Assembly: GCF_000196515.1 (NCBI RefSeq)
Contig: NC_014248.1
Coordinates: 3,786,001-3,850,000 of the forward strand
DNA: 64,000 bases
Source: 'Nostoc azollae' 0708
GTDB lineage: Bacteria > Cyanobacteriota > Cyanobacteriia > Cyanobacteriales > Nostocaceae
Direction of reading: 5' to 3'
Under the pieces are notes generated by a model. It was not told the DNA's origin. It did not search any database and saw nothing but the letters and a program-made list of their open reading frames with translations. Each line of letters begins with the position of its first letter. The first letter of the stretch is position 1. Shown piece by piece: positions 48,890 to 54,134 of this stretch. The position numbers were made by a program, and so were the translations under genes.

Positions 48890-49945
48890 ATGACCATAGC
48901 AGTTGGACGCGCCCAGTCAAGAGGGTGGTTTGACGTACTAGACGACTGGTTGAAGCGCGATCGCTTCGTATTCGTAGGTTGGTCAGGAATATTACTATTC
49001 CCCTGCGCCTTCCTAGCACTAGGTGGCTGGCTAACCGGTACAACCTTCGTCACCTCCTGGTACACCCACGGATTAGCATCCTCCTATCTAGAAGGAGCAA
49101 ACTTCCTCACAGTAGCAGTATCCACACCCGCAGACAGCATGGGACACTCCCTACTGTTACTCTGGGGACCTGAAGCTCAAGGTAACTTAACTCGTTGGTT
49201 TCAACTAGGTGGCCTATGGCCATTCGTTGCTCTACACGGAGCATTCGGACTAATCGGCTTCATGTTGCGCCAATTTGAAATTGCCAGACTAGTAGGGATT
49301 CGTCCTTACAACGCTCTCGCCTTCTCAGGCCCCATCGCCGTATTCGTCAGCGTCTTCTTGATGTATCCCTTGGGACAATCTAGCTGGTTCTTTGCACCCA
49401 GCTTTGGTGTAGCAGCAATCTTCCGATTCTTGTTATTCCTACAAGGTTTCCACAACTGGACACTCAACCCCTTCCACATGATGGGTGTAGCCGGAATATT
49501 AGGTGGTGCATTGCTATCTGCCATTCATGGTGCAACAGTAGAAAACACCCTGTTTGAAGATGGCGAAGGCTCCAATACCTTCCCCGGATTTAATCCCACC
49601 CAGGCGGAAGAAACCTACTCCATGGTGACAGCAAACCGATTCTGGTCACAGATTTTCGGAATTGCTTTCTCTAACAAACGTTGGTTACACTTCTTCATGT
49701 TGTTTGTCCCAGTCACAGGCTTGTGGATGAGTGCAGTAGGAATTGTGGGTTTAGCATTAAACCTACGGGCTTATGACTTCGTTTCCCAAGAATTACGGGC
49801 AGCAGAAGACCCAGAGTTTGAAACTTTCTATACCAAAAATATTTTGCTGAATGAGGGTATCCGCGCTTGGATGGCTCCTCAAGATCAACCCCACGAACAA
49901 TTTGTATTCCCTGAGGAGGTATTACCTCGTGGTAACGCTCTCTAA
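48890..49945 (+). CDS. psbD: Photosystem II D2 protein
   Basis: D2 forms the photosystem II reaction centre core with D1 and binds pigments, QA and the iron. The 351-residue product is essentially invariant: [20 protein letters not shown], five membrane helices, the pigment/iron His in [20 protein letters not shown] and in [11 protein letters not shown], and the end [11 protein letters not shown]. In the usual operon psbC overlaps the end of psbD; here a terminator follows at once and there is no psbC. This is therefore a second, monocistronic psbD of the kind that is often induced by strong light. Confidence 0.98.
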
Positions 49946-50022: not shown

Positions 50023-50119
50023 AATTGTTAATATTGCCAAGCAAATTTGATGTGTTATAGTAATTGAAGGTTACAAACCCAGAGTTTTTCACTCTGCCTT
50101 TTTGAAACTAAGACCGTTT

Positions 50120-50367
50120 AGGCAATAAGGAGGTGATGCCCATGATAGAAAGTAGTATACGCGTGGGTCATCAGCTTGCAGTTAGTCGGCTGTGCGCCGG
50201 GGCTGTTCTCTAAGAAGTTAGCCTTAGTTATGCTGAGATACTCAGTTAGATCATCTAGCTAGGCTAAAACTCGGACTTCCTTCCGGCAGTCTCCTTGCAA
50301 GCTGAAGACCCGCTAGGCCGCCCTAAATTAGATCATCTGATCTAAATTTAGGGCGGATAGTTTTTTT
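50120..50367 (+). ncRNA. Unassigned structured small RNA ending in a strong terminator
   Basis: The segment 50163-50180 pairs with 50296-50313 in an 18-bp stem with one A-A mismatch and one G-U (5' arm GGGTCATCAGCTTGCA, 3' arm TGCAAGCTGAAGACCC). Inside are smaller helices: TTAGCCT/AGGCTAA (50218-50224/50261-50267) and CTGAG/CTCAG (50233-50245). The 18/19-base terminator arms 50318-50335 and 50338-50356 (CCGCCCTAAATTAGATCA) are followed by seven T. A 23-codon ORF lies in the 5' half. It could be a stable regulatory RNA of 6S-like rod shape or a small mRNA. I could not match it to SRP RNA, tmRNA, RNase P RNA or a known riboswitch. Confidence 0.6.
50142..50213 (+). CDS. 23-codon mini-ORF with an ideal ribosome binding site
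   Basis: ATG at 50142 is preceded, eight bases away, by AAGGAGG (50127-50133) in a TAAGGAGGTGAT sequence nearly fully complementary to the 16S 3' end. The peptide would read MIESSIRVGHQLAVSRLCAG-AVL. The ribosome site sits in a loop closed by GGCA/TGCC (50121-50124/50137-50140). Its second half overlaps the 5' arm of the long-range stem, so translation and folding should exclude each other. No homologue is known to me. Confidence 0.45.
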   Translation: MIESSIRVGHQLAVSRLCAGAVL

Positions 50368-50903
50368 ATGGGTAAGTTCTCTTTTTTTTGAGGGCGCATC
50401 CTAAATGTGTAGGTTTTTAGTTACAACTCTTACTAGCGCAGAAATACACGCATTTTCGGTGTCTAGTTAAGTTCCCACCTCCCCTGCCTCTCCATCCTCC
50501 GCTTCATTTATCCGTGGCATCAATCCACAATCGTTATACGGATAGATTCAGCTTTCGCCGAACCCCAAACGTCTGAATCCCTTACGGGTAAGTCCAATAT
50601 CCCAAATTGGATCACTTTCTTTATTTATATTTTTAGCTAAATTGTAATCTTGATCATTTGTTCAATCTTATGATATAATATCGAACTATAGAATGGAATG
50701 TAGAGGCTGTTACATAAGTTAATTTAATCGCATAAAATTTTAACGATTTGTTAATCAGTTATTAGCTTTGTAAAAACTAGAATTGTAGTAGTGCCAGCTA
50801 TACCTCATTTACAGGTTAAACCAAGATGTGGCGTTTCTGATAAATAGGTACTACAAAAACAGTAAAAACAGTCATCTATAAGGTGTGAGGAGTAAAAGTA
50901 AAG
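50368..50903. other. Gene-free region upstream of the porin gene
   Basis: About 535 bases without an ORF. It includes a C-rich stretch with Pro/His-like translation near 50470-50590, likely an intergenic repeat, and an AT-rich zone from 50600 that should hold the porin promoter. Confidence 0.4.
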
Positions 50904-52589
50904 ATGTCTAATCTCTTGTGGAAATCCTTGGTAGTTAGCCCCGCAGTTTTGGGAGCAACGTTGTTACTTTCGGGAGCAGCGATCGCCGCTCCAAATACCA
51001 CCACTGAAGTTTCAACAGTAGAAACACAAGTTGTAACAGAGGTTGTCCAACAACCTGAAGTATTAGCTGAAGTACCCGCGAGTTCTGGGGTTTTAGCCCA
51101 AGTTCAACCCTACAGCAACGAAGGTCAAAATTTACAGTCTCAAGTAACATCTGTTTCTCAGTTTTCCGATGTCCAACCCACTGACTGGGCTTTTCAAGCG
51201 TTACAGTCCTTAGTTGAGCGTTATGGTTGTATTGCTGGTTATCCCAACGGTACATATCGCGGTAACCGGGCATTAACCCGTTATGAATTTGCGGCTGGTT
51301 TGAATGCCTGTTTAGATCGGGTTAATGAATTGATAGCCACAACAACTGCTGATTTGGTCACAAAACAGGATTTAGCTACTTTACAGCGTTTACAAGAAGA
51401 ATTTTCTGCTGAATTGGCAACTCTGCGCGGTCGTGTAGATGCTTTGGAAGCGCGTACAGCAGAGTTAGAAGCTAACCAGTTCTCTACTACCACCAAGTTG
51501 CAAGGTGAAGCTATTTTTGCCGTTACTGATGCTCTTAATGGTGATATTGCGGGTAAAACCGTTTTTCAAGATCGCGTGCGTCTGAACCTGCAAAGCAGCT
51601 TCACTGGTAGAGATATCTTGAATACCCGTTTAAGTGCGGGTAATGCCAAAGGCTTTATCAACGGTGGAGAAAGCAAACAAACCTTTGAAGTTAGTGGCAA
51701 TACTGCTAACAGTGTTAATATAGACAAACTGACCTATGAAGCTCCTGTAGGTCCAGCACAAGTCTACATAGCAGCTACAGGTGGTCAACACAGCCATTAT
51801 GCCGCTGTTAACAACCCCTACTTCTTCGATAAAACTGATGGTGGTAACGGTGCTTTAAGTACCTTTGCTTCTGAAAATCCCATCTATCGGATTGGTGGTG
51901 GATCTGGTATTGCTTTAAATGTACCCTTTGGTAAACCAGGTAGTATCCTCAAACCAAGTTCATTAACTCTGGGTTACTTGGCTTCTGAAGCTAATGATCC
52001 TACAGATGGTAATGGCTTGTTCGATGGTAACTATGCTGCTTTAGGTCAGTTAAACTTTAATGTTGGTAATCGCATTGCTTTAGCTGCTACCTATGTACAT
52101 GGTTACTTTGGTGCTCGTAGTACCTTGTTTGACTCAGGACTTGATGATGGTGCTATTGTTGGTACTGATCTAGCTAACAACTTACGCAGTACGAACGGCT
52201 CTTCTACCAACTCCTACGGTATTTCCGCAGCCTTCACACCTAGTGAAAAACTTTCGATCAGTGGTTTTGTTTCTTACCACGATGTCATAGGCTTCGGTGC
52301 TAATGATAATTATGAAGCTTGGAGTTATGGAGTTGGGGTAGCATTACCTGACTTTGGTAAGAGAGGTAACGTATTAGGGATTTTTGGTGGCGCGCAACCT
52401 TATTCCTTTAACAATGGTGGTGGTGCTAACTCTGGTGATATTCCCTACCAAGTTGAAGGTTTCTATAAGTATCGCGTTTCGGATAATATTTCCGTTACCC
52501 CTGGTGTCATTTGGTTGCCTTCTACTGGACAAAATAACAACAGCGAGGATACCTTTATCGGTACTCTGAGAACAACCTTCACTTTCTAG
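50904..52589 (+). CDS. Iron-uptake type porin (SLH domain plus OprB-like barrel)
   Basis: The 561-residue outer-membrane protein has a signal peptide (cut after AAIAA near residue 30), an SLH domain at about 88-150 (FSDVQPTDWAFQALQSLVER, GYPNGTYRGNRALTRYEF), a short coiled coil (about 155-190) and a C-terminal OprB-like beta barrel ending FIGTLRTTFTF with a terminal Phe. Cyanobacterial proteins of this architecture form narrow pores and some carry inorganic iron; the SLH domain binds the cell wall. A terminator follows. Confidence 0.93.
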   Translation: MSNLLWKSLVVSPAVLGATLLLSGAAIAAPNTTTEVSTVETQVVTEVVQQPEVLAEVPASSGVLAQVQPYSNEGQNLQSQVTSVSQFSDVQPTDWAFQALQSLVERYGCIAGYPNGTYRGNRALTRYEFAAGLNACLDRVNELIATTTADLVTKQDLATLQRLQEEFSAELATLRGRVDALEARTAELEANQFSTTTKLQGEAIFAVTDALNGDIAGKTVFQDRVRLNLQSSFTGRDILNTRLSAGNAKGFINGGESKQTFEVSGNTANSVNIDKLTYEAPVGPAQVYIAATGGQHSHYAAVNNPYFFDKTDGGNGALSTFASENPIYRIGGGSGIALNVPFGKPGSILKPSSLTLGYLASEANDPTDGNGLFDGNYAALGQLNFNVGNRIALAATYVHGYFGARSTLFDSGLDDGAIVGTDLANNLRSTNGSSTNSYGISAAFTPSEKLSISGFVSYHDVIGFGANDNYEAWSYGVGVALPDFGKRGNVLGIFGGAQPYSFNNGGGANSGDIPYQVEGFYKYRVSDNISVTPGVIWLPSTGQNNNSEDTFIGTLRTTFTF

Positions 52590-52880: not shown

Positions 52881-54134
52881 GTGATGTTTTTGTACAGTCA
52901 AAATCTGATTAACACAAACCAACAGCTAAAGGCAGTTTTAGAATTTATTTGTTCTGAATCGCATACATTAACCAACTTTGGTATTTACTATGCCAGACAA
53001 ATATATTTTAGAATTGGCAAGATTGTTAAAAAATTTGACTTGATTAACGAATACAAAAGCAACAAACATTACCAAGTTTTGTATTCCCAGGTTGCACAAC
53101 AAAACCTGATTTCTGTAGCTGAATCTTTTAAATCATTTAAGGCATTAGATAAAAAGTATAAAAAAGGAGAGTCGACCAACAAAGCCAAGCTGCCTAAGTA
53201 CAGAAAAAGCGGCTTCTTCGCTTTAGTAACATATCCAATGCAAGCACTAAAACCAGTAGGTGATAAAATCAGAATTCCCTTGGGTACAACTGTCAAAATA
53301 TGGTTTGGTCTGGAAGGGTTTTGGCTAAAAATGCTTTCTCACCTAAACTTTGGAGACATCAAAGAAGTTAGGATACTCCCCCGTAATCGCTGTTTTTATG
53401 CCGAGTTTGTTTGTCAATCACAACCAGAGGGCAAACCACAGCTAACCCTGGATAAATGTTTGGGAATTTATCCAGGAATAAATAATTGGTTAACCTGCAT
53501 CTCTAATGTTGGCACATCATTCATTGTTGATGGGAAACATGTAAAATCTGTCAATCAGTGGTGCAATAAGATAGTTTCAAATATCAAGGAGAACAAACCT
53601 CAAGGATTTTGGAGCAATAGACTAGCAGCTATGACTGAGAAGCGTAATCGCCAAATGTGTGATGCCGTAAACAAAGCAGCGAGATTACTAATTAATCACT
53701 GCTTACAACAAGGGATTGGGACAATTGTTCTTGGGTGGAACAAAGGAGAAAGACAAGAGGTTGATTTGGGTAAGAAAACTAATCAAAGCTTTGTTAAAAT
53801 CCCTACGGCTAAACTTAAAGACCGGATCACTCAAATGTGTGACCAATAGGGTATTAGGTTTGTAGAAACTGAAGAAAGTTATACGTCAAAAGCTTCCTTT
53901 GTGGATAATGATTTACTCCCTGAATAGGGTGAAAAACCCGACAAGTGGAAAGAATCAGGAAAGCTTGTTCAACGCGGCTTGTATGGTACAGCTAATAATT
54001 TCTAGATCAATGCCGACTGCAATGGGGCAGCGAATATCTTGAGAAAAGTAAAGGCGACATTGGGATTAAATCTCATTGGATTTACTAGAGGCGCATTGAC
54101 TACGCCTTTAAGAGTCCGTTTTTGGACTGCTTAA
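52881..54134 (+). pseudogene. tnpB: TnpB-type nuclease gene, inactivated
   Basis: The frame of about 417 codons is TnpB/OrfB: an N-terminal domain (ICSESHTLTNFGIYYARQIY, KLPKYRKSGFFALVTYPMQA), RuvC-I region LDKCLGIYPGINNWLTCISN, a middle TIVLGWNKGERQEVDLGKKT, RuvC-II with TEESYTSKASF, and INADCNGAANILRKVKA. RuvC-I normally reads GIDLG; here Asp has become Tyr (GIYPG), which removes a catalytic residue. In-frame TAG codons follow after MCDQ (53847), LLPE and ANNF. The 5' flank has a hairpin TGAGGCG/CGCCTCA near 52823, a plausible element-end structure. No TnpA is adjacent. Confidence 0.9.

Follow-up and report, generated by a model that had tools for sequence, protein, structure and literature searches.

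The locus

The window, which is the whole stretch of 64,000 nt from 'Nostoc azollae' 0708 that was analysed, contains at about 50068-50367 on the plus strand a structured RNA of about 300 nt. The RNA is placed between psbD (48890-49945; PF00124) and the gene of an OprB/SLH porin (50904-52589; PF04966 and PF00395), which starts about 540 nt past the RNA terminator, and in the ORF list of the window there is no dehydratase-like ORF between RNA and porin (50368-50903). Just past the porin, an ORF with a GTG start at 52881-53849 (plus strand) matches the OrfB_IS605 (TnpB-like) transposases (PF01385, 1.2e-11). Only one full copy of the RNA is found in the genome, and as the other two genome matches are to the palindrome of its terminator and to a stretch of 19 nt, a mobile or multi-copy repeat can be ruled out.

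A structured RNA with a nested mini-ORF had been described here in an earlier note that was based on the DNA letters, and this observation is confirmed. The ribosome site, the ATG and the 23 codons closed by TAA are all present, and so are the 18-bp stem (50163-50180 with 50296-50313), in which there is one A.A mismatch (170/306), the inner helices, and the terminator with its seven T, the helix of which carries bulges (Table 1). The 5' arm of the stem does lie inside the ORF, codons 8-23 of which are part of the 5' strand of a long rod, and translation would need to open this stem, as had been pointed out. The Shine-Dalgarno (SD) sequence was thought to lie in the loop of a small hairpin, which is possible (GGCA 50121-50124 with TGCC 50137-50140) and is predicted in the 246-nt fold of the window RNA, but in the 299-nt minimum-energy fold the SD is partly paired. 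Judging from the promoter-like site, transcription would start near 50068.

Table 1. Features of the RNA locus, with positions in the window
Feature	Position	Strand	Remarks
Promoter-like site	50034..50061	+	TTGCCA, 16 nt, TATAGT, with TG before it (TGTGTTATAGT at 50051-50061); score 10/12
Long SD sequence TAAGGAGGTGAT	50126..50137	+	
23-codon ORF, product MIESSIRVGHQLAVSRLCAGAVL	50142..50213	+	ATG at 50142, TAA ending at 50213; 72 nt with stop
Hairpin A (predicted)	50139..50167	+	CCCATG 50139-50144 with 50162-50167; masks start codon, excludes P1
P1, 5' strand GTGGGTC	50163..50169	+	
P1, 3' strand GACCCGC	50307..50313	+	last strand synthesised ahead of terminator
P2, 5' strand	50171..50180	+	ORF codons 10-13; two-sided changes in 9/10 pairs
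P2, 3' strand	50296..50305	+	
P3-P5, 5' strands	50185..50211	+	185-191, 196-201, 208-211; 186-200 able to fold alone as CCGGC/GCCGG
P3-P5, 3' strands	50273..50295	+	includes conserved TTCCTTCCGGCAGTC
Variable apical domain of rod	50214..50272	+	poor alignment, many length changes
Terminator	50313..50367	+	helix 50313-50360 with bulges; seven T at 50361-50367

Conservation of the fold

The folding energy of the region is -118.3 kcal/mol (z -4.87; 0/100 shuffles as good), and because of this z-score, the homologues in 56/59 relatives and the covariation, the structure goes beyond chance. The rod and the terminator were analysed in an alignment (A1) of 54 of the 57 members from the order, L054, L057 and L059 having been left out as their terminator ends were not recognised. 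Of the 46 pairs, which form in 97.7% of cells, 23 show two-sided changes, with a shuffle mean of 9.8 and 0/500 shuffles reaching the observed values on any of five measures, and since the sequences are related, such counts are not independent. When the partner columns are slid by one to three positions, pairing falls to 25.5-45.5%. Class-wide, two-sided changes are found in 28/32 rod pairs, in an alignment (A3) that holds 100 loci chosen by us and not all 291, and that was fitted to the model. Compensatory changes in the long stem, the check on covariance that had been proposed for it, are therefore present.

In the terminator, half of the 14 pairs are invariant and the other seven have two-sided changes, with 96.3% of cells paired. 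The window itself has a compensated swap at 175/301, C-G versus G-C in most members, but has lost the pairs 186/294, 187/293 and 208/276. A local hairpin (186-190 / 196-200), which is an alternative to P3/P4, is 98.5% paired and shows little covariation. The terminator base CUA-GA-CCGC / GCGG-A-UAG is invariant in 54/54 members, and in several deep members it reads, as judged by eye, CCA/UGG; with more constraint than a terminator needs, it may serve as a binding site for a protein. L059, L108, L109 and L110 do not have the CGGATAG with which the terminator usually ends.

Distribution and identity

Homologues were detected by blastn in 56/59 relatives, or in 57/60 genomes when the window's own is counted, which answers the call for homologues in the earlier note. 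A covariance model (R1), built from 32 members (alignment A2, 32 of the 54 in A1), matches 291/388 genomes of the class and 137/157 genera, with one match per matching genome except for two each in G095 (L157, L158) and G159. With laxer filters, 12/22 previously matchless genomes match at E <=1, only one of them below 0.001. The matches in family f29 are weak (E 1.8e-4 to 6e-3); together with two others found under laxer filters they are picocyanobacterium-like and tentative, they enter only the search's own tallies, and the assignment of f29 to the marine picocyanobacteria is a guess. The window copy is somewhat worn (183.6 bits, with up to 223.5 in relatives). In its closest relative, L004 (222-478), the ORF has a one-base deletion and a base of the GGG of P1 is altered, by decay or assembly error.

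Rfam 15 gives no gathering-level match, neither in the window nor in 10 homologous loci; the weak matches are below the cut-offs and lie mostly over the psbD terminator. In this sense the earlier statement that the RNA belongs to no known family holds for Rfam, but its description fits homologues of an RNA that is already in print, ncl0160 of Synechocystis 6803, the original report of which is said to be that of Mitschke in 2011. Homologues of ncl0160 have been listed for 83 cyanobacteria, according to the part of the text that is accessible, with a putative peptide of 23-25 aa that mostly has ATG and in few cases GTG starts, a ribosome site ahead, and 47 TAA, 34 TAG and 2 TGA stops, and ncl0160 was called likely translated (PMC4734099). 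As ORF size, ribosome site, spread and stop usage all fit this description, the window RNA is very probably a member of the ncl0160 family, a match that is based on the published description. The ORF has 23-25 codons in 56/57 sequences of the order, the start is preceded by the ribosome-binding site TAAGGAGGTGAT with an invariant core, the RNA is present in most of the cyanobacteria searched (291/388), in line with a family of heterocystous and other cyanobacteria that includes Synechocystis, and is seen in Synechocystis salina LEGE 00031, and the stops here are 53 TAA, 44 TAG and 2 TGA (n=99), likewise mostly TAA and TAG with 2 TGA. In the literature searched, ncl0160 is named only in PMC4734099 and no study of its function was recognised; in the accessible text of that paper neither a covariation test nor a start-codon switch is reported. 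The RNA is real and ancient, has very probably been published before under the name ncl0160, and is without an Rfam family, and what is new here is the covariation, the near-neutral peptide within a mostly kept frame, and a predicted completion-gated start codon.

A predicted switch at the start codon

An alternative pairing that masks the start codon had been missed by the earlier note. GGG at 50165-50167 is predicted to pair either with CCC 50309-50311, in P1, or with CCC 50139-50141, in hairpin A, which takes up the AUG. All three CCC/GGG pairs of hairpin A are possible in 87/99 class members, a count that omits L187 with its GTG start, and early fragments pair as hairpin A with a probability of at least 0.5 in 88/99, leaving 11/99 without early pairing. 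In alignment A1, hairpin A is paired in 95.4% of cells, but as it has only one-sided changes and equals its shuffles, it is unsupported by covariation. It may be argued that a strand with two partners is expected to be frozen.

The accessibility of the start codon was followed in 139 homologous sequences, with all folding being equilibrium prediction on related sequences. With only the first 13 codons present, the start is unpaired with a median of 0.004, versus 0.48 when codons 2-13 are shuffled, and the value is lower than in the shuffles in 134 of the 139; at full length, the median is 0.51, versus 0.06 with the 3' half shuffled, and it is higher in 123. The start remains below 0.3 unpaired at full length in 35/139, and in the Gloeobacter-like L116 it is open already early (0.71 unpaired). 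As the window RNA grows, its start is predicted to be masked up to 50310 and to be mostly free (0.67-0.83) from 50320 on, and when the P1 3' strand is added in the 54 order members, accessibility goes up in 53, in 39 of them by more than 0.3. The two forms are close in energy: the best form of the window RNA has -106.1 kcal/mol and the form with hairpin A enforced -103.0 kcal/mol, and within the order (n=54) the gap is 4.3 +/- 2.4 kcal/mol, with hairpin A favoured over P1 in 4/54. The terminator of the window RNA stays intact in either predicted form.

The mini-ORF and its product

The SD core GGAGGTGATG is invariant in 54/54 aligned members. A uniquely long SD is rejected, since three other sites in the genome share it and carry AAGGAGGTGAT followed by ATG. 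The hairpin that would present the SD in its loop is possible in 42/54 relatives, and a shifted GGG/CCC register is open to 10 more. The ORF has 23 codons in 53/57 order sequences, window included; the exceptions are L004 with 25 and L055 with 34 codons, each of which has lost one base, and L032 and L053 with 24. Among 100 class members the start is ATG in 99 and GTG in L187, and 86 of them have 48 nt between the start and a rod base that is invariant, 10 have 51 nt and 4 have 47 nt, so that 10/14 length variants differ by three bases and retain the frame. ORF length varies from 16 to 34 codons in 99 class members, 73 of which have 23.

These data bear on the question whether the peptide is the product, with the RNA being a small-protein mRNA the fold of which merely protects or tunes the message. 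Such an mRNA is what the conserved start, SD, frame and stop would suggest, but selection on the peptide appears slight. For the 23-codon ORFs (108 distinct sequences), the in-frame pN/pS is 0.80 versus 1.11 in both other frames, and by segment it is 1.05 for codons 2-8, 0.75 for codons 9-15 and 0.53 for codons 16-23; the ORF lacks an excess of third-position entropy, and Pfam gives no match to the peptide. The last eight codons stand apart from this picture, as their pN/pS in the other frames is 1.79 and 1.70, which speaks for the small protein, although a constraint on the RNA could also explain it. On the other hand, this same C-terminus is missing in 7/99 members, where the ORF ends at codon 16-17, and it is read in another frame in L004, L055, L115 and L119. 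A codon-wise check, as proposed at the outset, thus finds weak coding-type substitution in all but the last eight codons, and the options of a small-protein mRNA and of a dual-function RNA, both raised at that time, remain live. On the present evidence a small-protein mRNA is the strongest of the rival explanations and still an unlikely one.

Conversely, the RNA may be non-coding and act through its structure, as a scaffold or a sponge, with an ORF that results only from the conservation of its nucleotides. The strong covariation across the ORF, a peptide that is near-neutral in codons 2-15, and the conservation of the RNA despite one-base deletions in L004 and L055 are all compatible with this. 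It is however difficult to reconcile with a frame that survives length changes in steps of three bases and with a long SD that is conserved at the right distance. Also, the ORF is open in 108/108 sequences versus 91% expected from column shuffles, in a set that was chosen for 23 codons; as other lengths were left out, this test is biased towards open frames. A purely structural role is accordingly improbable. Since the frame is mostly kept and selection on the peptide is slight, it seems that being read matters more than most of the peptide product.

Independent unit or leader

The motif TGTGYTAYNNT is found upstream of the RNA in 79/139 loci, versus 0.3% of shuffles, and in 51 of those 79 it is located 86-95 nt ahead of the start codon. 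In the window, a simple scan found 7 promoter-like sites, which is not clearly above the 3.4 +/- 2.2 in shuffles, and did not list the terminator of the RNA because it permits no bulges; it is conservation that supports both promoter and terminator. At 83 loci with enough sequence, the next ORF of at least 90 aa runs in the direction of the RNA in 63 cases and against it in 20. In the window's family the RNA commonly comes after psbD and is commonly followed by a porin or dehydratase-like gene, but neither is general, and one conserved downstream gene is rejected, as what comes next may be a porin, dehydratase-like, cysK-like, convergent or other gene. In many relatives the RNA is followed by a dehydratase-like gene (MAQLL...HHPD), the product of which looks like a pterin carbinolamine dehydratase. 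In L004, L007, L009, L013, L014, L019 and others, the contig breaks within psbD or close to it, a short way upstream of the RNA; such breaks would be expected from an assembly that is disrupted by a second copy of psbD.

It has to be considered that the RNA is a 5' leader, attenuator or 'actuaton' of the downstream gene, here the OprB porin. The next ORF is co-oriented in most loci and often encodes a porin or dehydratase-like protein, and actuatons are described for Synechocystis in the accessible text of PMC5386190. However, the -10-like motif and the convergent neighbours at 20/83 loci argue against a leader role and exclude it as a general one, the downstream gene varies between lineages, the porin of the window starts far beyond the terminator, and the predicted switch neither makes nor breaks the terminator. 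The preference of the earlier note for an independent transcript over an attenuator is therefore borne out, and a leader function is very improbable. A 6S RNA (RF00013), which had been suggested and which the rod shape recalls, or another Rfam family can practically be dismissed, as there is no gathering-level match at the locus and the genuine 6S RNA of this genome is encoded elsewhere (C1:364511-364694, 112.6 bits).

Proposed mechanism

Sequence comparison supports, for this RNA, a promoter-like motif of its own, a covarying rod and terminator, and a mostly kept start, frame and stop. The explanation that we favour, tentatively and with slightly less than even confidence, is a completion-gated translation, in which a structured RNA and mini-mRNA of about 300 nt would have its translation tied to its fold. 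According to the folding predictions, as long as only the 5' half exists, CCCAUG would pair with the GGG at the head of the long stem and the start codon would be masked; GACCCGC, made just before the terminator, would then capture the GGG into P1 and free the start codon. Ribosomes could now bind at the long SD, read the short ORF and peel the 5' strand off the rod, which may leave the conserved 3' strand (AGUUCCUUCCGGCAGUC...AGACCC) open to a putative partner. Alternatively, the opening of the rod may let hairpin A re-form, so that the ORF would be shut again. In either case ribosome traffic would toggle the RNA between two forms that are few kcal/mol apart. When the genome of the window was searched with one 15-nt pattern for targets of the 3' strand, the hits were the RNA itself and two sites with 2 mismatches, with 5 for a reversed-pattern control, and no partner was found with this pattern in this genome.

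A bolder version of completion-gated translation, which we consider rather unlikely, is that this is an ancient phylum-wide RNA with the mini-ORF as the moving strand of a two-state switch, the fold being reset by passing ribosomes, so that the RNA would gauge translation and signal via its 3' strand, with the peptide being largely irrelevant. If true, the ORF as a moving strand would be a natural device for reading ribosome traffic. As a single-copy RNA in most cyanobacterial genomes searched that is absent from Rfam, it is likely an unstudied core regulator, and it also illustrates that the conservation of a mini-ORF within a structured RNA does not by itself prove a functional peptide.

Comparison with known systems

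The hok-type mRNAs keep their translation masked until their 3' end has been synthesised or cut off. The RNA described here is similar in that 5'-3' pairing would govern the access to a short ORF, but the proposed logic is the opposite, with completion opening the ORF, there is no toxin-like peptide, and as far as tested (no Rfam match) there is no sequence relation. With 6S RNA it shares the long rod, but the two have separate loci in the genome. Yfr103 of marine picocyanobacteria is another conserved and structured RNA, the copy number of which is mentioned as notable in the accessible part of its description (PMC5069720), and the likeness to the window RNA, both being conserved and structured, is one of description only. 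Comparable as well are the dual-function sRNAs, such as SgrS/SgrT and SR1/SR1P, in which, as far as the accessible text goes, one short RNA can act as both RNA and mRNA (PMC5126843), as may be the case here. Unlike in these systems, the ORF of the RNA described here is shorter and doubles as one strand of the conserved fold, and the constraint on its peptide is weak.
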